From NCBI GenBank assembly GCA_029561455.1, contig JAKQIY010000069.1, positions 1 to 34,127 of the forward strand: DNA of 34,127 nt, read 5' to 3'. The notes under the pieces were generated by a model, which did no database searches, had not been told where the DNA came from, and worked only from the letters and a program-made list of their open reading frames with translations. Positions 9,354 through 34,127 of this stretch are shown here, in pieces. The first letter of the stretch is position 1, and each line of letters begins with the position of its first letter. The DNA is from a bacterium. Lineage in GTDB: Bacteria; Zhuqueibacterota; Zhuqueibacteria; Residuimicrobiales; Krinioviventaceae. Both the position numbers and the translations under genes were made by a program.

Positions 9354-11012
9354 TTAACGTACCAGGATCATCTTTTTAATAGCTGTAAAATCACCGGCCT
9401 TGATCTTGTAGAAATACACGCCGGAACCGACCTGGTTGCCCAAGCTGTCCTTGCCGTTCCAGGTAACGCGATATGCGCCCATACCCTGGCTGGCATCGAT
9501 GAGCGTGGCAATTTTCTCGCCGCGTACATTAAAGACGCTCAACTCAACCTTGCCGCTGTGTTGCAACGAATAGTCGATAGTTGTTTCCGGGTTGAACGGG
9601 TTCGGATAGTTTTGCTCCAGCATATAGGCGGACGGAGTCGTTTGCGGACGCGGTTTAACACCGGTAACAACGCGCTTGTCAAAATCCCAGCGGTTATAGA
9701 ATATCGGGTCGATGCTGCCGAACTGGGCGTTGATGAACGCGGTGGGCTGGCTGTCGTCGATATTTTCCACATGGTTATTGCCATAGCCGCCTTCGTTATC
9801 GCCGCCGCAAATCCCGAATTTGAATTCCTGGCCGACAAACACATCCGAGCTGTCCTTGTAAAACTGGAACTGGATAGTGAAAATGCTGTCACCGGCCACA
9901 GCGTCACCGTGGGTGCCGTCGTCGTACATGCGTTTATTCTGCAGGGTCATCAAATGTTTGCCCCAGTCCGGGCCAATATCGTTGCTCCAACTACCGGTGG
10001 CCGGGCCATTGATAGCTACGCCCATTGCCAGAACACTGTCAGGATGAGTGATATCCACCGTACCCTGAATATCTTCAAGAATATCATGACCGTATTTGAT
10101 CTGGGCGATAGCCGGACGAACATCGCAGGTAAAGGTGACCAGCACATCCCGCGAAAGCGACGACAGGTTCTTGAAGAACGGCATACGATCCGAAGCGCCG
10201 GTGCTCGCTACCGTATCTGCTACTGAAGTGGTTGGCGAAGAAACAATCACCTGGCGGCGCTGCGCCTCACCGGTTGTTGTACCATTATAAAAGAAATTGT
10301 AATACAATTCAGTGAATTCCTGACTGCCCTTTTGTACAAAGTACTGGTAATCCAGGGTATCGCCAATAGTAGTAACCACCTCGGCAGCGCCGGTATACAG
10401 GGAGGTAAAACCAATGCGGGTCATGGGAACAGTAACCACTTCATTGGCAGTGCTGAAAAAGCCCACCTGACATTCCAGGGTATCGCCAAAGGAAAAGCCT
10501 CTTTGTGAAATGGCTGAGGACATATCGACCAGGGCTTCAAACTGCAGGGTATCATCATGAGTGGGGGTAATGGGGCCGCCGCCGGTCAGATCGAGTTCCC
10601 AGTCCACACCGCCCGGGGCTTTATCCCAAAGAGTGCCGTTGGTGATGACAAAATCGATTGTGCGGATAGTATCGTTAGTAGCAATGGTTATTTCCCACTT
10701 GTTCTGTGCCGTCAGGATCATGGGCGATTGTACGGAAACGCCTTTGGTATGAACTATTGTGCCTTCCGGCCACATAGATGCCGGCGGTTCTTTCCATTTG
10801 CCATAACCGACTTTATTGATACCCCAGTGTAACTTGACGGTTTTATCAAATTTCTTGATAATACCCACTTCAGGATCATAAGTCAGGGTGATAACATCGC
10901 CGGGCTGGGCATCTTCCGGCACCCAGGATACCGCGCCGACAACTTTTTGCGAAAAGGCGGATGATACCGCGAAAAATGAAACCAGTAAAACAAGCATGAC
11001 ATATTTTTTCAT
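9354..11012 (-). CDS. T9SS-secreted protein with carbohydrate-binding-like modules
   Basis: A 552-aa secreted protein. The start at 11012 has AAGGAGG upstream and gives a clean signal peptide (1-21, ending AFSQ); a longer frame from 11072 lacks both. Residues about 30-125 resemble a CBM25/26 starch-binding module (KLHWGINK near 50, then a WEI...FVITNG...WD pattern). Two further beta-sandwich stretches follow, with VDMSSAISQRGFSFGD and later MYDDGTHGDAVAGDSIFT, which recall the CBM20/48-like modules often found in T9SS cargo. The C-terminus has NYPNPFNPETTIDYSL, GSGVYFYKI and KKMILVR, a standard type A sorting domain. No catalytic domain is seen, so it is likely a surface binding protein. It is the last gene of the operon. 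Confidence 0.85.
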   Translation of the reverse strand: MKKYVMLVLLVSFFAVSSAFSQKVVGAVSWVPEDAQPGDVITLTYDPEVGIIKKFDKTVKLHWGINKVGYGKWKEPPASMWPEGTIVHTKGVSVQSPMILTAQNKWEITIATNDTIRTIDFVITNGTLWDKAPGGVDWELDLTGGGPITPTHDDTLQFEALVDMSSAISQRGFSFGDTLECQVGFFSTANEVVTVPMTRIGFTSLYTGAAEVVTTIGDTLDYQYFVQKGSQEFTELYYNFFYNGTTTGEAQRRQVIVSSPTTSVADTVASTGASDRMPFFKNLSSLSRDVLVTFTCDVRPAIAQIKYGHDILEDIQGTVDITHPDSVLAMGVAINGPATGSWSNDIGPDWGKHLMTLQNKRMYDDGTHGDAVAGDSIFTIQFQFYKDSSDVFVGQEFKFGICGGDNEGGYGNNHVENIDDSQPTAFINAQFGSIDPIFYNRWDFDKRVVTGVKPRPQTTPSAYMLEQNYPNPFNPETTIDYSLQHSGKVELSVFNVRGEKIATLIDASQGMGAYRVTWNGKDSLGNQVGSGVYFYKIKAGDFTAIKKMILVR

Positions 11013-11096
11013 AAGCGAACCTCCTTGAATTGTATTTATGAATGATTTACCTTTATACTTGTCTCTCCACATACTGCTGCCTGGGTTGTTACCCGG

Positions 11097-12128
11097 TTAA
11101 AAAGTAACTCCCAGGGAAAACATATTAATATCTTCCAGCAAACCAAAATCGGCAAAAGTATAATCAAACGCCCACGAAAAACCGGGGCCGGTGGAAAAAT
11201 TCAAACCCATGCCCAGGGTGAGGCCCTCTTCGCTGTCTTCGCGGAACAGGGATTTATAACCGCCGCGCAAAAACAACAGGCGGTATAATTCCATCTCTGC
11301 GCCGACATTCAGCACTTCGGAATTATCACTGGGACGCAGCGCATCAATTGCGGTGGTCAGACGTAAATTCTCCTGTTTGAGTACATCCATTGCCAGGCCG
11401 ACCCGGAAAAATAACGGCAGCGGCCAGTCGTCAGTTTTAAGCCGCGACACAATATTCTCATTATGACCGATCGCATCGGGATCCAGGTCTACCCGTTTTA
11501 ACAAATCTTTGCCGTCCAGGCGCATATCAGTGCCGAAATTGGTTATGCTCATACCAAGACGCATATCATGCAACTCGGTAATATACAGCAATCCAACATC
11601 AAAAGCAAATGCAGAAGCGGATTCATTCCACAGCTTTTCCTGGATATACTTGGCATTTCCGCCGATGGAGAACCGGTCGGTCAGATTCCGGGCATAAGAT
11701 AAAGCAATGGATATATCGGAAGCGCCCCATTTTTCACCGGTGCCTTCCGGGTCCAGCACTGTGGTTACCTCTTCTTCGCCATAGTTCAATTGGGTAAGGC
11801 TCAGACCGATGGCATTGGTGCCGTCCAGATTGAACATTAAACCGATCCAGCTAAAATCGGTATCAACCAGCCAACTGGTATAAGCAAAAACAAACTGTGA
11901 ACGCCCCGCCCTGGCGATGCCGGCCGGATTATAATAGAGAGAAGTAGCATCGTCGGCGACAGCGGCAAAAGCGCCTCCCAACGCTGTAGCGCGTGGCCCG
12001 ACACTGATCCCCAGAAATGACGCCGCGGTCGTGCCGACCTTGGACTGCCCGAACGCCGAACCGGTAAAGGCAGCAAGGAGTGTTAGAACCAGGATGGTTG
12101 CGGCTGTATGTGCACATTTTTGAATCAT
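11097..12128 (-). CDS. PorV/PorQ-family outer-membrane beta-barrel protein
   Basis: A 343-aa protein with signal peptide (1-28, ending AFGQ) followed by FLGISVGPRATALGGAFAAVADDATSLYYNPAG split across 39-68, the signature N-terminus of the PorV/UPF0164 family of FadL-like barrels. The rest is alternating amphipathic strands ending in SLGVTF, with a terminal phenylalanine typical of outer-membrane barrels. In Bacteroidota PorV shuttles T9SS cargo from the translocon to the attachment complex. Here it sits between two genes whose products carry T9SS sorting domains, so a role in their delivery is a reasonable inference. The start at 12128 is supported by GGAG 7 bases upstream. Confidence 0.88.
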   Translation of the reverse strand: MIQKCAHTAATILVLTLLAAFTGSAFGQSKVGTTAASFLGISVGPRATALGGAFAAVADDATSLYYNPAGIARAGRSQFVFAYTSWLVDTDFSWIGLMFNLDGTNAIGLSLTQLNYGEEEVTTVLDPEGTGEKWGASDISIALSYARNLTDRFSIGGNAKYIQEKLWNESASAFAFDVGLLYITELHDMRLGMSITNFGTDMRLDGKDLLKRVDLDPDAIGHNENIVSRLKTDDWPLPLFFRVGLAMDVLKQENLRLTTAIDALRPSDNSEVLNVGAEMELYRLLFLRGGYKSLFREDSEEGLTLGMGLNFSTGPGFSWAFDYTFADFGLLEDINMFSLGVTF

Positions 12129-24775: not shown

Positions 24776-25251
24776 CTTCCAGGGCGCGCATTACCTGAAC
24801 ACTGTATAAAAAAATTGCAAATATATATAGAAAGGGTAAAACGCTTACACAAAACAGATATTATTAATGGATATGGCAGTGTAGCCCGGCCCAATGCCCT
24901 TGCAAAAAAATACCCAAATGCTTCATGGATATTGCCTGGCAACGAGTATTTCCCGCGCCTGATATTTCCAAGGACCCTGAATCAGGCATATTCAGGAGAC
25001 ACCATCAGGGTGAATGGATGATCCAAAGAGCCATACATGAGGCCAAACTAAAATCCGGTATTGCCAGGCATTTTGGATGTCATACTTTACGTCACTCCTT
25101 TGCAACCCACTTATTAGAAGCTGGTTATGACATCCGAACAATACAAGAATTATTGGGGCATAAAAATTTGAATACAACCATGATTTACACACACGTTCTG
25201 AATAAAGGCGGTAAAGGTATTTGCAGTCCTATTGACGCTATATTGCAATGA
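24776..25251 (+). pseudogene. intI: Integron integrase, 5'-truncated and frameshifted
   Basis: The first reading frame gives LPEHCIKKLQ, then RVKRLHKTDI and [11 protein letters not shown], matching the IntI-specific region before the catalytic core (IntI1 has PDALERKYP). At about 24917-24927 the match shifts by one frame and continues as [53 protein letters not shown] and [11 protein letters not shown] to the stop at 25251. The C-terminal tyrosine-recombinase residues HxxR, the second His and the Tyr nucleophile are present, but the first catalytic Arg and the whole N-terminal half are missing and no open frame precedes 24773. It is therefore inactive unless the frameshift is an assembly error, and even then it is truncated. 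Confidence 0.85.
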
Positions 25252-28786: not shown

Positions 28787-29062
28787 CTAATCCCCGTCCA
28801 CGTTCGCCAATGCCACGCCGAACTTTTCCGCAACGTCTTCAATCACGGATTTGAGGGTCGCCACCGCGCAATCGTCCAGCGCCGTGGCGGTTTTGCCGGT
28901 CAGCGGTTCCAGTTCCGCATCGATTACCGGGTACATTGCGGCCAGCGCCACTGCGCCGTGTTCCGGTTCGCGCGTCATCATGCCGGTTAGCAACGGCGTC
29001 AACACCTGTTTCAGCGCCAGACCAATGATCGGCGCCAGCAATTCGATCAGTTTTTCCACCAT
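28787..29062 (-). CDS. Small helical protein, phage-module associated
   Basis: A 91-aa protein with a hydrophobic N-terminal half (LIELLAPIIGLALKQVLTPL, 5-24) and an acidic C-terminus with a helix SVIEDVAEKFGVALANVDGD. A good ribosome site AAGGGGTGA precedes ATG 29062. It is last in a minus-strand cluster that looks tail-like; the position and membrane-active N-terminus would suit a holin or a small structural protein, but it is not recognised. The next gene upstream ends only 31 bases away. Confidence 0.6.
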   Translation of the reverse strand: MVEKLIELLAPIIGLALKQVLTPLLTGMMTREPEHGAVALAAMYPVIDAELEPLTGKTATALDDCAVATLKSVIEDVAEKFGVALANVDGD

Positions 29063-29093: not shown

Positions 29094-29312
29094 TTATTGT
29101 TGCGATTTTGTGAGTTTATTGAGCAGCTTTTTCTCGTTTTCCAGCGGATCGCCTCCTTTCTTTGCCCGGCCCAGCTTTTCACCCAGACCAAAGGTTGTCC
29201 ATAAAAATCCGGCTTTGCAGACCCACGGCGAAATCACCGGCCCCACCGCCGGGATCAAATTCGCCGCACCGCCCAAGCCGATGAGCAGCAGTCCTGTTAA
29301 TGTTTTTGGCAT
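29094..29312 (-). CDS. Small membrane protein, holin-like
   Basis: A 72-aa protein whose first 45 residues are hydrophobic and glycine-rich (LTGLLLIGLGGAANLIPAVG, then VISPWVCKAGFLWTTFGLG), enough for one or two membrane helices, followed by a basic, hydrophilic tail (LGRAKKGGDPLENEKKLLNK). This size and layout fit phage holins, which time lysis by making pores. GGGAGG lies 5 bases before ATG 29312. It is paired with the 91-aa gene. Family membership is not certain. Confidence 0.6.
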   Translation of the reverse strand: MPKTLTGLLLIGLGGAANLIPAVGPVISPWVCKAGFLWTTFGLGEKLGRAKKGGDPLENEKKLLNKLTKSQQ

Positions 29313-29600: not shown

Positions 29601-30002
29601 TTATTCTCCATCCGCCACAGTCTCAAAAAAGGTTAAAACCTGCGTTCGTTCCGCCGCCAGGCGACCCATACTGTACTGCGCGGCAATCCCCGGTTGCAAA
29701 AATACCGGCGCATACAAATCCGGATGGTTTTTATAATCCATGTACAGGTTCATCGTACTATGATTAGCTCGCAGCATTTCCAGTTTGTCCACCGTTTCGG
29801 GACGAACAGTGATCACCTCGATTGTATACTCGCGGATTTCCCCGGACAACAAATACAGCAGCGGACGACGGTTCTGCAATCTTTTGAGTACATAGTTACA
29901 GCGGCGGCGCGTCGTCACCAGACCGGTCTCCTGCGCCGCAAATTCAACAGCTTTAATTTCCGCGCCGTCAAAATATTCAATTCGCACCACCGTCCCGCTC
30001 AT
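29601..30002 (-). CDS. Tail-module protein of unknown function
   Basis: A 133-aa soluble protein (VVRIEYFDGAEIKAVEFAAQ, then RRRCNYVLKRLQNRRPLLYL, and MDYKNHPDLYAPVFLQPGIA). It shows no signal peptide and is not recognised. Its ATG overlaps the stop of the 998-aa gene (29999-30002), so it is co-translated with it and probably part of the same structure. The arrangement resembles small baseplate or tail-tip accessory genes. Confidence 0.65.
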   Translation of the reverse strand: MSGTVVRIEYFDGAEIKAVEFAAQETGLVTTRRRCNYVLKRLQNRRPLLYLLSGEIREYTIEVITVRPETVDKLEMLRANHSTMNLYMDYKNHPDLYAPVFLQPGIAAQYSMGRLAAERTQVLTFFETVADGE

Positions 30003-32995
30003 TGCGCGCCTCCCGCTGCCGGCGCGACCAAGCCAATGAGTCGTATGTCCAGGCCCTCGCGGAATGTCACCTGGCGGCCGATCAGTTCCACATCCAGATC
30101 AAGCGCCGGGGATTCGCTGTGCAGATGCACCCGGTCGCCGATGTTCAGCAACAAGCCCTGCAAGCTCGTCTGGAAGGCAACCATCTTGATGCCGTATTGC
30201 CATAACTCATACTTTTTGTCGATCACCGCCAGCGCTGTTTGTTTTCTGTAAAAACCGGGCAGACTCAATACCGCGCCGCGTATAAATCCATGCCGCCGGT
30301 AACTCTTGTTGGTATTTATCGATTCTGGAAAAGTGCATTTAACCAGGTAGCGGCTGTTTTCATAATCATAGCAATAACGAACGGTAAACTCGTTAATCAT
30401 CGGCCGGGTGAGAATCTCCGGGTTCGGCAGCAGGTTGGTCTGTCCGGTGATCAGCACCGGCGTCTTGAGCTGCGGCCGGATAGTATAAATCTGCTCCACG
30501 CCCCAGTTATCCGTATATAAAAAACCGTCAAAAAGCGCGCATACGGTTTGCAGCGCCTGTAAAATGGACATGTCCCGGTCCAGCGACAGGCTGACGCAAA
30601 TATTGGCAGTTTCGCAATACCCGTACTCCCGGTCAAAATTGTAATCCGCATCGGTCGCTTCCTGCTGCTGCACAATAACCGCAGTTCCCGCCGGAATATC
30701 CGCGCCGGTGTGGGCGGCAATGGTGAGACTGATCTGCGGCGGGTACGAGGTCTCGGCAGTGTTCCCCCCGTTGACGCTGACCATATAAGCGCCAATTTTC
30801 AGACCTGCCCCGGCTTTGATCAGGGTCGGCACAGTGACCGTTACCTTGACTTCCGTATCCGCGGTTTCCAGCGCTTCCGCCAGTACCCCGATATGCTTAT
30901 CCCCGAAAAATGCCGAGGCAGCCAGCAAATGCGCAGGGATAGCCGCGCTACGGGACAACAGTTCATAAAGAATGCGCGCGGGATTTTCCTGCTGCCAGGA
31001 AAGCGCCGTTGTAAACCGGACGATTTCCCCGGCATGGGGATGTCCGCCCCAGGCAGCGGGTATAATTCGCAATTGCGTCCCTCCCTGGTTGTTGGTGATC
31101 ACTGTCGATATACGATAGACCGTTACTCCCCCCTCGGCGACAAGAAAGACATAACCATTGCTGACTGCGAGACCGGTTGCATTGGCCAGGTAATGTGGCT
31201 CCCCGGCCCCGCTGATCGCTTCAAAATGCGCCGGCGAGTCCGGTTCAGCAAGATCAAACAGACTCAATGCGCCATCGTTCATGCTGGTGGTATACAAAAA
31301 GCCATCGCTGACCTGCAATCCATAGCCATCAGTATAATACGGCGCACCCGGTCCGCCAAAACTGCCTGCCAATACCGGCGAAGCTGGATTGGCAATATTC
31401 ACAATGGTAATCCGGCCATCGCCGGTTTTGATATACGCATAATTCCCGGAAACGGCCACATCGGAGCCGCCATAATCCAGGGACAATGAGCCCGCCAGAG
31501 TCGGACTATCCGGATTGGTTATATTGATAATGAGAAATCGCCGGTCAAAATACGAAGCAGTATACAAGTACTGTCCGGCAATGCAGAAATTCCACAAGCC
31601 CTGCATGTACCAGGGAGAACCGCTGCCGCCGATTTGCGCGACATAAACAATATTGGCGGGATTGCTGATGTTAAAAATATAGATCGTATCGTAGCCCTGC
31701 ACAAACAACCGGTTGCCATAGACTTTGCAGGAATAACAGAAAAAATCCTCCGGCACGCCCTCTTGTCCCGCCGTTTTGGTATCGACCAATACGGGATTGT
31801 ATTTATCCGCCACATGATAGCATTTCAGCGCCCCGGTAAATCCCGCGCCCATGTCGACGTACGCGACAAACACGTAATTGCCGTTTTTTGCAACATCGGC
31901 GTACGAGGGGAAATCGGCAAAAGCGATAGACGACACTTTGACCGGCGCCGCAGGATCGACGGCATCCGCTATGACCAGCTTGCCGGTATCGATAACCGGA
32001 ATATACAGATAGTTCAAATCCTTTATTAAATGCCAGGCGAATCCCATATCATTTTCCACCCCGGCCAGCCGTCCGCTATAACCGTAGCGCGTATCGCAGT
32101 GCAAGCCATCGACTCCCGGCCCGGAGACAATGTATTCATTATCGCTGATAAACTCTAGTTCCCAATTCCCCGGCCGGCAATTCGCCAATGGATAAACCAG
32201 GCTGCGGTTCAAAGTACCGTCCGCGCCCTCGCTCCACTGTATGCTGCTCGCCAGTTCGCCATTGCTGTTAATACGCATCAACTTTTTATCCGCGTCCCGG
32301 TCCACGCCTGTCAGGGACAAATCCAGGGTATTCTTTTGCAATTCCACCAGGGTCAATGTTATGTAACCGCTGCCCGCCTCCGGCGTTTTCAGCAATCGTC
32401 CCCGAAACAGGGTTACGGGATTAGCGGTGTTGTCGGTTCGTAAACGAATTAACACCTGGCTGTTTTCCAGCGCATTAACGTAGACAATACAACCGGCGGC
32501 AAAATCGAAACTTGTCGCTTCCTGCAGTGTCAGCAGGTCAAATTCTTCCTGTTTTTCAAATCCGGATACATGGCAGGTTTGCTGCACAATGCCGCCGGAA
32601 CCGACTGCCGGGCCTTTGATCGTCACGGCTTCGCCATTGCTGAAAGCGACCTGCTGCTGCGGCGCTAACCGCAGCGTGTGTGAATTGCGCGGCGTGGTTT
32701 CCAGCAATTCACTCACCGCATCATGAAACGGACTGGCAGGATTACCCGGATTCAGACGTCCGTCCGGGTCGCGCAGGGTTACAACCACCTCGCGCATGGT
32801 CGGGCGGCGTTCCCAGGTCACATCCATATCCAGCGTCTGCGCCAGTCCTGATATTGCAGAAATACCGTATTTGCCATTCAGCATAACATTTTTGCCTTCA
32901 GGATCAAAAACCAGTTCCGGCATAAGATGAATGCCCGCTTTTCGCTCCAGTTCGTTCCGCCAATCCGGCGGTAATGATTCGTATCCGGCCATCAC
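29999..32995 (-). CDS. Phage tail-hub-like protein with inserted seven-bladed LVIVD propeller
   Basis: A 998-aa protein. Residues 1-300 (for example RRPTMREVVVTLRDPDGRLN and a VTLFRGRLLKTPEAG segment) and 780-998 (NEFTVRYCYDYENSRYLVKC, LLNIGDRVHLHS, VELIGRQVTFREG) resemble the baseplate-hub or tail-tip proteins of phage tails. Between them, about 305-640, are seven repeats of a strand-rich unit such as YLYIPVIDTGKLVIADAVDP, ITIVNIANPASPVLAGSF and LSLFDLAEPDSPAHFEAI: the LVIVD propeller pattern, normally found in secreted surface proteins. No signal peptide. Overlaps by 4 bp with genes on both sides. The fusion could add a receptor- or ligand-binding module to a tail tip. Confidence 0.75.
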   Translation of the reverse strand: MMAGYESLPPDWRNELERKAGIHLMPELVFDPEGKNVMLNGKYGISAISGLAQTLDMDVTWERRPTMREVVVTLRDPDGRLNPGNPASPFHDAVSELLETTPRNSHTLRLAPQQQVAFSNGEAVTIKGPAVGSGGIVQQTCHVSGFEKQEEFDLLTLQEATSFDFAAGCIVYVNALENSQVLIRLRTDNTANPVTLFRGRLLKTPEAGSGYITLTLVELQKNTLDLSLTGVDRDADKKLMRINSNGELASSIQWSEGADGTLNRSLVYPLANCRPGNWELEFISDNEYIVSGPGVDGLHCDTRYGYSGRLAGVENDMGFAWHLIKDLNYLYIPVIDTGKLVIADAVDPAAPVKVSSIAFADFPSYADVAKNGNYVFVAYVDMGAGFTGALKCYHVADKYNPVLVDTKTAGQEGVPEDFFCYSCKVYGNRLFVQGYDTIYIFNISNPANIVYVAQIGGSGSPWYMQGLWNFCIAGQYLYTASYFDRRFLIINITNPDSPTLAGSLSLDYGGSDVAVSGNYAYIKTGDGRITIVNIANPASPVLAGSFGGPGAPYYTDGYGLQVSDGFLYTTSMNDGALSLFDLAEPDSPAHFEAISGAGEPHYLANATGLAVSNGYVFLVAEGGVTVYRISTVITNNQGGTQLRIIPAAWGGHPHAGEIVRFTTALSWQQENPARILYELLSRSAAIPAHLLAASAFFGDKHIGVLAEALETADTEVKVTVTVPTLIKAGAGLKIGAYMVSVNGGNTAETSYPPQISLTIAAHTGADIPAGTAVIVQQQEATDADYNFDREYGYCETANICVSLSLDRDMSILQALQTVCALFDGFLYTDNWGVEQIYTIRPQLKTPVLITGQTNLLPNPEILTRPMINEFTVRYCYDYENSRYLVKCTFPESINTNKSYRRHGFIRGAVLSLPGFYRKQTALAVIDKKYELWQYGIKMVAFQTSLQGLLLNIGDRVHLHSESPALDLDVELIGRQVTFREGLDIRLIGLVAPAAGGAQ

Positions 32996-33375
32996 TCACA
33001 CTCCATAAAGGTTAAGCGGTGTACATGCTCCGCCAAAGCATCGTCATGATAATGATAGAATTCCACCTGTTCCGGCAGCAAAAACGCCGTTAGGGATTTA
33101 TCGGGATCATGGAGCATGGCGTAATACACCGTCTTTTCATTTTTATCATTCAGCAATGCGGCAATCTTTGCCCCGGTATCCGCTGCCGCTTCCAGGATAT
33201 TGACTTGCAGAACCGCCCAGTCCTCGCCCTCGCTGCGAATCACCGGCTGGGTTTTTTCATTATTCTGCGCCTGGTAATGCCGCAATAACTGCACTTCCGC
33301 ATCCGGGATTTCTTCAGTATAGAAATCCACAGTACCGGACTGCTGCACAAATCTTATGGCAATTTGTCGGTTCAT
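32992..33375 (-). CDS. Tail-module protein of unknown function
   Basis: A 127-aa soluble protein (IRFVQQSGTVDFYTEEIPDA, DWAVLQVNILEAAADTGAKI, FLLPEQVEFYHYHDDALAEH). Not recognised. Starts at ATG 33375 overlapping the stop of the 81-aa gene, and its own stop overlaps the start of the 998-aa gene, so it lies in the middle of a tightly coupled chain. The size and position fit a tail-completion or baseplate wedge protein, which is inference from context. Confidence 0.65.
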   Translation of the reverse strand: MNRQIAIRFVQQSGTVDFYTEEIPDAEVQLLRHYQAQNNEKTQPVIRSEGEDWAVLQVNILEAAADTGAKIAALLNDKNEKTVYYAMLHDPDKSLTAFLLPEQVEFYHYHDDALAEHVHRLTFMECE

Positions 33376-33617
33376 TGGAATGGCGCCTCCGGGGTTTCCA
33401 TATAGCGTTCCTTGAATTTCAGGCGCGGATAAATGACCTCATCGACCAGATCGGTCCAGGTATCACCCTCCGTACCCACAATTCCCTGCGCGCCGCCGCT
33501 GCCTTTGTGCAAACTCGTCATCACCTGCTGCGGTAAAGAAGACAAGTCCTCTCCGGCTAAATTACTTGATAAATTGTTTGGAGAATTATTAACCACAATA
33601 TTATTATCTCTTTTCAT
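33372..33617 (-). CDS. Small protein heading the tail-like cluster
   Basis: An 81-aa protein, with ATG 33617 preferred to a TTG at 33623 because AGGA lies 6 bases before the ATG. The first third is Asn/Ser-rich and probably disordered (NNIVVNNSPNNLSSNL), followed by SLHKGSGGAQGIVGTEGDTW and a C-terminal helix-strand (VDEVIYPRLKFKERYMETPE). Not recognised. First gene of the coupled chain; no capsid, portal or terminase gene lies upstream within the window. Confidence 0.6.
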   Translation of the reverse strand: MKRDNNIVVNNSPNNLSSNLAGEDLSSLPQQVMTSLHKGSGGAQGIVGTEGDTWTDLVDEVIYPRLKFKERYMETPEAPFQ

Positions 33618-33639
33618 AACCAATCCTGTTTTTGTGTTA

Positions 33640-34127
33640 ATCTAATAACTTTAATATACCACCTGTTTCCTCTGCGTTCTCTGCGCCTCTGCGTTTAAAA
33701 ACTCTTCTTGTTCCCAATCTCCAGAGACTGTGATAAAAGGAATTGTGTTTATTAATTAGAGATTTGGAGCCTGATTAAAAATGATTTTTGTAGGGGCGAA
33801 GCATTTGTTCCAGAATTTTTCAAATAGTTAAAATTTATTTGTAAAAATGCTTCGCCCCTACCAGATTTTTATGATAACTTGCATAGTAAAAGTGATAACG
33901 ATAATTTTCCAAAGAGTATGCATTTCCTTCGTTCCAAACTCCGGAGACTGTGTGAAAACAAAAAAAATTACTATAAAAGTGGAGTGCATCGCCTTTATGC
34001 GATGCGTTGGGCCGAAGGTCCAAATATTATCTGAATTTTGAAAACCTTACTGATTATTACAGATATAATTAATGTTAGGTAACTATATATTTTTATTCAA
34101 ACAATAATCGTTTCGAGGCCGCCTGCG
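33640..34127. repeat. Gene-free end region with hairpin repeats
   Basis: Contains a CTCTGCG tract (33669-33695, CCTCTGCGTTCTCTGCGCCT and on), a 17-bp stem GTAGGGGCGAAGCATTT (33790-33806) with AAATGCTTCGCCCCTAC (33845-33861), GCATCGC-ctttat-GCGATGC (33986-34005), and two copies of a CTCC-(A/G)GAGACTGTG motif near 33718 and 33939. Any promoter for the minus-strand cluster should lie near 33650-33720; none was convincing. Short open frames here look spurious. Confidence 0.6.

Follow-up and report, generated by a model that had tools for sequence, protein, structure and literature searches.

A seven-bladed LVIVD propeller within a putative phage-type tail-hub protein of a KSB1 bacterium

What does a propeller of LVIVD units, which belong to a surface-protein family (PMC2447325), do inside a protein encoded among phage tail genes? 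The question arises at positions 29999 to 32995 (minus strand) of contig JAKQIY010000069.1, where an open reading frame without internal stops encodes 998 amino acids. The window, meaning the whole stretch of 34,127 nucleotides that was analysed, is one entire contig (C27) of a 5.85-Mb genome (G000). The initial annotation had placed a tail-hub protein here at the right coordinates; the strand is actually minus. The listed start is GTG, and because the next codon is ATG and the ortholog in a second species of the same genus (genome G001) has Met at the same place, the gene probably starts at the ATG at 32992. On the homology of its C terminus and its place in a capsid-tail operon, the product is very probably a tail-tip protein. 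We propose that it forms the tail-tip hub of a particle of phage origin in a bacterium of the uncultured KSB1 group, with the propeller projecting and binding a stable cell-surface ligand, a proposal for and against which we find the case evenly balanced.

The repeat domain was recognized at several levels. Pfam LVIVD (PF08309) matched the hub at 45.8 bits (cut-off, 20.2; E value of 3.6e-12) and the ortholog at 48.8 bits over six stretches, so that both hubs are members of the family. By eye, seven units could be counted between residues 318 and 639, all encoded on the minus strand: unit 1 (residues 318 to 358, positions 31922 to 32044), unit 2 (359 to 408, 31772 to 31921), unit 3 (409 to 457, 31625 to 31771), unit 4 (458 to 506, 31478 to 31624), unit 5 (507 to 548, 31352 to 31477, with the best Pfam stretch at 511 to 546), unit 6 (549 to 596, 31208 to 31351), and unit 7 (597 to 639, 31079 to 31207). 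The summed pairwise similarity of the seven units was 780, compared with 427 +/- 20 and a maximum of 487 in 300 shuffles. An AlphaFold2 model of residues 300 to 645, built from 22 sequences (both hubs plus LVIVD proteins from bacteria and, in one case, a phage), reached a mean pLDDT of 85 and a pTM of 0.87 and contained 28 strands arranged as seven four-stranded blades. Compared with the PDB, this model matched seven-bladed propellers at a Z score of 31.8, and many propellers predicted in viral proteins matched it as well. The Pfam score, the unit similarity, and the 28-strand model thus all bear out the seven LVIVD-like repeats of the initial annotation.

In the model, the first strand (residues 309 to 314) supplies the fourth strand of unit 7 and completes blade 7, giving a closed propeller that spans residues 309 to 632 (31100 to 32071, minus strand). 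The model indicates that the propeller is a separate closed seven-bladed domain between two flanks, not part of one continuous unrelated domain. Because the first strand closes the last blade, both ends of the propeller would leave at one point, and the domain could therefore project without breaking the hub.

The C-terminal flank (residues 633 to 998, positions 30002 to 31099, minus strand) connects the protein to phage tails. It matched Phage-tail_3 weakly, at 13.7 bits against a cut-off of 23, and at the same place the flank of the G001 ortholog gave a weak match, also below cut-off, to NMB1110-like_C ("Tail protein, C-terminal domain"); the latter flank also aligned with "host specificity protein J", not significantly. 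A profile search found an 828-aa open frame in genome G121 (E value of 0.005; product of 820 aa), which is part of a prophage-like module of tail genes that also includes an amidase-like lysin. This G121 protein matches the PHROG tail family phrog_11439 (1.1e-37) and Phage-tail_3 at 0.002 (18.3 bits, under the cut-off). Compared with it, the C-terminal flanks of the two hubs gave an hhalign E value of 3.4e-5 and a score of 45, while the best of 290 phage-ORF comparisons was 24; Smith-Waterman scores were 60 and 90, and none of 1,000 shuffles (33 +/- 5) reached either. The common segment lies at residues 903 to 975 (30071 to 30289, minus strand). From these alignments we conclude that the hub C terminus is homologous to a tail-tip or hub-type protein from an unrelated prophage-like module, linked through the one G121 intermediate. 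Because its own match is below the cut-off, we describe the protein as hub-like by homology and do not file it as a Phage-tail_3 member.

Other searches with the hub returned no relative: the hub, both flanks, and the propeller as queries on viral contigs found none (nor did the portal query), tblastn in phages gave nothing for the whole hub or for its flanks, and no genome elsewhere in the phylum yielded either flank. When the flanks were aligned as single sequences by hhalign to 145 phage ORFs, no signal emerged, mainly a sign of low power. Weak matches in genomes G285, G245, G221, and G092 looked unrelated when the sequences were read. A full-length AlphaFold run with only the ortholog added (2 sequences) had a pLDDT of 33, and no fold claims are drawn from it. 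The idea that both flanks look like a tail tip was thus sustained for the C terminus, through G121, and not shown for residues 1 to 300, which had no sequence match.

The genomic setting also points to a tail protein. The window overlaps exactly, over 129 bp (33999 to 34127, by contig-end comparison), with the end of contig C78, which holds the capsid half of the same cluster. The G000 cluster is thus split by a contig break: C78 carries the genes for protease, decoration, capsid, connectors, and tail, arranged as in G001, and the joined operon reads protease-decoration-capsid-connectors-tail-hub. In G001, the cluster starts with a portal, a 440-aa protein (probably a protease with a zinc ribbon), a 148-aa decoration-like protein, the major capsid protein, and two connector-like proteins; proteins of 161, 263, 75, and 155 aa, the hub, and proteins of 150, 88, 73, and 91 aa follow. 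The portal (phrog_30703, E value of 2.6e-66) and the major capsid protein (phrog_3922, E value of 2.6e-51, with HK97 capsid Pfam matches) are certain, while assignments beyond portal, capsid, and hub are tentative, and the roles of the small proteins are guesses from gene order. That a propeller is set in a tail protein therefore holds up well: it is a separate domain between flanks, in a capsid-tail operon, with a C terminus akin to a tail-tip protein.

The ortholog in G001 allowed us to ask how the cluster has evolved. It also has 998 amino acids and is colinear over its full length, with 55% identity over residues 1 to 989; identities of the parts are 55% for the N-terminal flank, 60% for the propeller, and 51% for the C-terminal flank. 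Between the two species, the capsid is 89%, the portal 82%, the hub 55%, and the host MscL 74% identical, and the divergence of most cluster genes is similar to that of MscL. In 13 cluster gene pairs and the three hub parts, all of them open, pN ranged from 0.06 to 0.40 and pS from 0.50 to 0.82 (saturated for the hub), which indicates that the cluster genes are under purifying selection in the two species. MscL is a neighbor of the cluster in both genomes and is oriented alike in each, at 1.7 kb in G001 and 8.8 kb in G000, and this one gene suggests a single ancestral locus; an IS110 transposase, ABC transporter genes, and low-GC DNA lie between MscL and the cluster in G000. Eight further genomes of the family were searched for the capsid protein, and none had it. 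Base composition does not single out the cluster as recently acquired, the G000 cluster genes having 49 to 60% GC and the host MscL 52%.

How, then, might the propeller work? It sits between the N-terminal part and the gpJ/Phage-tail_3-like C-terminal part, and we infer that it would project from the tail tip. Comparison of the two species by loop class, with small counts and two sequences, gave identities of 69% for the d-a loops, 78% for the loop into blade 1, and 46% for the b-c loops. Four d-a loops are 10 to 13 residues long and glycine-rich, with proline and aromatic residues (W, Y, F, and H occur among the long-loop residues). Since the d-a loops share one face of the modeled propeller, a conserved ligand site on that face is a reasonable inference. 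The face may bind a stable surface ligand, either a glycan or a surface protein, and such binding would place the tail tip on the envelope. We favor receptor or glycan binding because conservation within the hub is highest in the propeller, whose long d-a loops on a single face are rich in aromatic residues and conserved as well. The receptor-binding role put forward in the initial annotation is thus plausible, through this conserved loop face and by analogy with the receptor-binding protein (RBP) of phage phi11, and the loop face offers a concrete target for a binding test.

A functional parallel is the RBP of Staphylococcus phage phi11, whose five-bladed propeller is proposed to bind the GlcNAc of wall teichoic acid (PMC4901313). 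Like the hub, the phi11 and 80alpha RBPs (PMC4901313, PMC7048315) carry a propeller at the tail tip, in phi11 a proposed cell-wall-sugar binder; however, theirs has five blades and forms part of a separate trimeric protein with a coiled-coil stem outside the hub. PhiKZ gp131C (cited in PMC4901313) has a seven-bladed propeller on the baseplate with an unproven role, but there the propeller is the C-terminal domain of a peripheral baseplate protein and not a hub insert. Hubs of the gp27/gpJ type (Phage-tail_3; RcGTA megatron and hub, PMC7296036) share with our protein the position in the tail operon and a C-terminal segment of the Phage-tail_3/NMB1110 kind; in RcGTA and T4, the hub barrels likewise bear an additional domain, there of the oligosaccharide-binding type (PMC7296036). 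They differ in that the insert here is a seven-bladed LVIVD propeller, the N-terminal part is not recognizable, and the match is below the Pfam cut-off. LVIVD (PF08309) and choice-of-anchor B proteins have the same repeat family and fold but are described as cell-surface proteins (PMC2447325), while the window's repeats lie inside a tail protein.

LVIVD propellers also occur in phages. A DNA pattern for VSGNYAYVA, run over IMG/VR contigs, found five. Three related contigs (G388, G390, and G391) encode a 716-aa protein that ends in LVIVD repeats (PF08309 E value of 7.1e-36; L073, 4513 to 6663), two genes after a tape-measure-type protein (phrog_25337, E value of 3.1e-12). A fourth contig, G389, comes from a phage that encodes large internal-virion-like proteins; its 485-aa fibre-like protein contains seven LVIVD repeats (E value of 8.8e-68; L074, 12908 to 14365), and the fifth contig has one short repeat. 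By sequence, at least two further phage lineages have acquired LVIVD propellers in their tail proteins, as end domains or fibres. These tail proteins have the same repeats as the hub, but with the propeller at the end or in a fibre-like protein and not as a hub insert; their occurrence in unrelated phages adds to the case for a binding role. The novelty claimed earlier is thus limited to the hub insert, since propellers in phage tails are already known and LVIVD ones occur in the tail proteins of these other phages. The hub gives the propeller a new place in the tail, other than a fibre, a separate receptor-binding protein, or a nozzle. LVIVD repeats are known from surface proteins of bacteria and archaea; that several unrelated phages have them in their tail proteins suggests a common stock of adhesion modules. 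In genome G090, a 474-aa protein downstream of a related capsid gene (L041, 9662 to 11086) reads like a BNR-type propeller (BNR_2, E value of 0.031) and may be a further propeller encoded in a cluster of phage origin. In genome G088, LVIVD proteins encoded close to a capsid gene were set aside as probably ordinary surface proteins, their C termini resembling type IX sorting signals by eye.

Several observations weigh against a binding hub on a phage-derived particle. The N-terminal flank (residues 1 to 308, positions 32072 to 32995, minus strand) has no homolog that could be found outside the genus, by Pfam, profile search, tblastn, or shuffle-tested comparison; by eye, its stretches TLRDPDGRLNP and LFRGRLLK may resemble hub attachment domains. 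The Phage-tail_3 match of the hub stays under the Pfam cut-off, and the only two hub orthologs both come from fragmented assemblies. The propeller differs less between the two species than the rest of the hub does, unlike many receptor-binding domains. Finally, the ORFs that separate the 263/266-aa gene from the hub were read in both species (with the contig break in G000), and no tape measure gene was recognized after the tube-like genes, an unusual situation for a long-tailed phage.

The last two points bear on the main rival, an unlikely explanation in our judgment, that the propeller binds no receptor and instead helps to build or gate the end of the tail. In crAss001, the muzzle protein gp44 contains a seven-bladed propeller that resembles the one in the T7 nozzle and has a loop gating the channel (PMC10172136); with no tape measure gene recognized, the tail could be short, and strong conservation of the propeller would suit a gate too. 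Like the hub, these proteins carry a propeller (seven-bladed in crAss001) in a tail-end protein, but they form the channel end with a ring-joining domain and have no gpJ-like C terminus (PMC10172136). The C terminus of our protein is of the hub/gpJ type and not a ring-joining nozzle domain, and LVIVD units belong to a surface-protein family, both of which speak against a gate.

Another explanation, rather improbable to us, is a decaying prophage whose hub protein has no present function. Neither Terminase_6N over its cut-off nor GpA_ATPase was found in either genome, with control genomes positive and other families untried, and weak terminase matches (L088 and L083) proved by eye to be an AAA ATPase and a UvrD-type helicase. 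Like the tape measure gene, lysis and replication genes were not recognized in the cluster, nor was an intact integrase. A 108-aa fragment with the C-terminal half of Phage_integrase (24925 to 25248; PF00589, E value of 4.5e-21) lies 3.5 kb from the cluster; by eye it is of the integron-integrase type with its upstream part in another frame, and it looks like a broken tyrosine recombinase. The G000 portal is on another contig, which would also fit decay. Nevertheless, no shared gene is interrupted in either species, and dN is far lower than dS, which is itself high or saturated; at such divergence dead genes would be expected to carry stops.

A remnant that is kept by selection, or a domesticated particle resembling a gene transfer agent (GTA), would fit the purifying selection, and we regard a decayed prophage and a GTA-like particle as candidates for the cluster. 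GTAs have Caudoviricete-like structural proteins, full endogenisation (often at multiple loci), vertical inheritance, and TerL, and they package and deliver random host DNA (PMC9662315). Here the portal, capsid, and hub provide such structural proteins, and multiple loci occur in one species, with the C78/C27 cluster and a portal on contig C4 in G000, while G001 has one cluster. On these two features we do not file the cluster as a GTA. A literature search on GTAs and KSB1 together found nothing. That this is an undescribed GTA-like particle of the phylum, with an LVIVD propeller of the bacterial surface type recruited into the hub to recognize cells of its own kind, is a speculation we would put well toward the improbable end. 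If the cluster is a GTA, it is to our knowledge the first candidate in the KSB1 phylum.

It is highly improbable that the propeller is an enzyme, of the lactonase or polysaccharide lyase/hydrolase type, or a holder of effectors or cargo. Some propellers are enzymes and the phage LVIVD fibre of L074 also matches Pfam Lactonase (E value of 1.3e-9), but domain searches matched the hub to no enzyme family, no candidate effector gene was recognized among the adjoining genes, and nothing was found in support of the effector-loading role once suggested. Barely credible, and already largely refuted, is an ordinary exported LVIVD surface protein beside phage genes by chance: G000 does hold several other LVIVD-type proteins (open frames of about 870 to 1170 codons), yet the gene overlaps small tail genes by 4 bp on both sides, has a syntenic ortholog in a capsid-tail operon, and encodes a C terminus homologous to a tail-tip protein; in the product, neither a type IX sorting domain nor an evident signal peptide was seen.

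The genes around the hub, all on the minus strand, complete the cluster. Directly upstream lies a gene for a 127-aa small tail protein (32992 to 33375; 40.6% identity to its G001 counterpart) and directly downstream one for a 133-aa small tail protein (29601 to 30002; 48%), each with the 4-bp overlap described above; the two are mutual paralogs (hhalign 93.8%, E value of 1.7e-7) in a symmetrical layout. An 83-aa cluster protein (33372 to 33623; 47.6% identity over 63 aa to G001), a 72-aa hydrophobic protein near the cluster end (29094 to 29312; 87%), and a 91-aa protein encoded by the last cluster gene (28787 to 29062; 77%) make up the rest. At the contig break, positions 33634 to 34127 together with the end of L038 form several hundred base pairs of AT-rich, repeat-like, geneless DNA amid the tail genes, where G001 has about 57 bp; the stretch may be a repeated mobile element, because the assembly broke there. 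The lone G000 portal gene on C4 (186266 to 187624; L058, 16264 to 17625) is 82% identical to the portal of the G001 cluster, and the genes beside it look like a curli-type amyloid operon. Elsewhere in the window (9354 to 12128), a PorV-like type IX secretion protein adjoins an exported protein that carries a type IX sorting domain.

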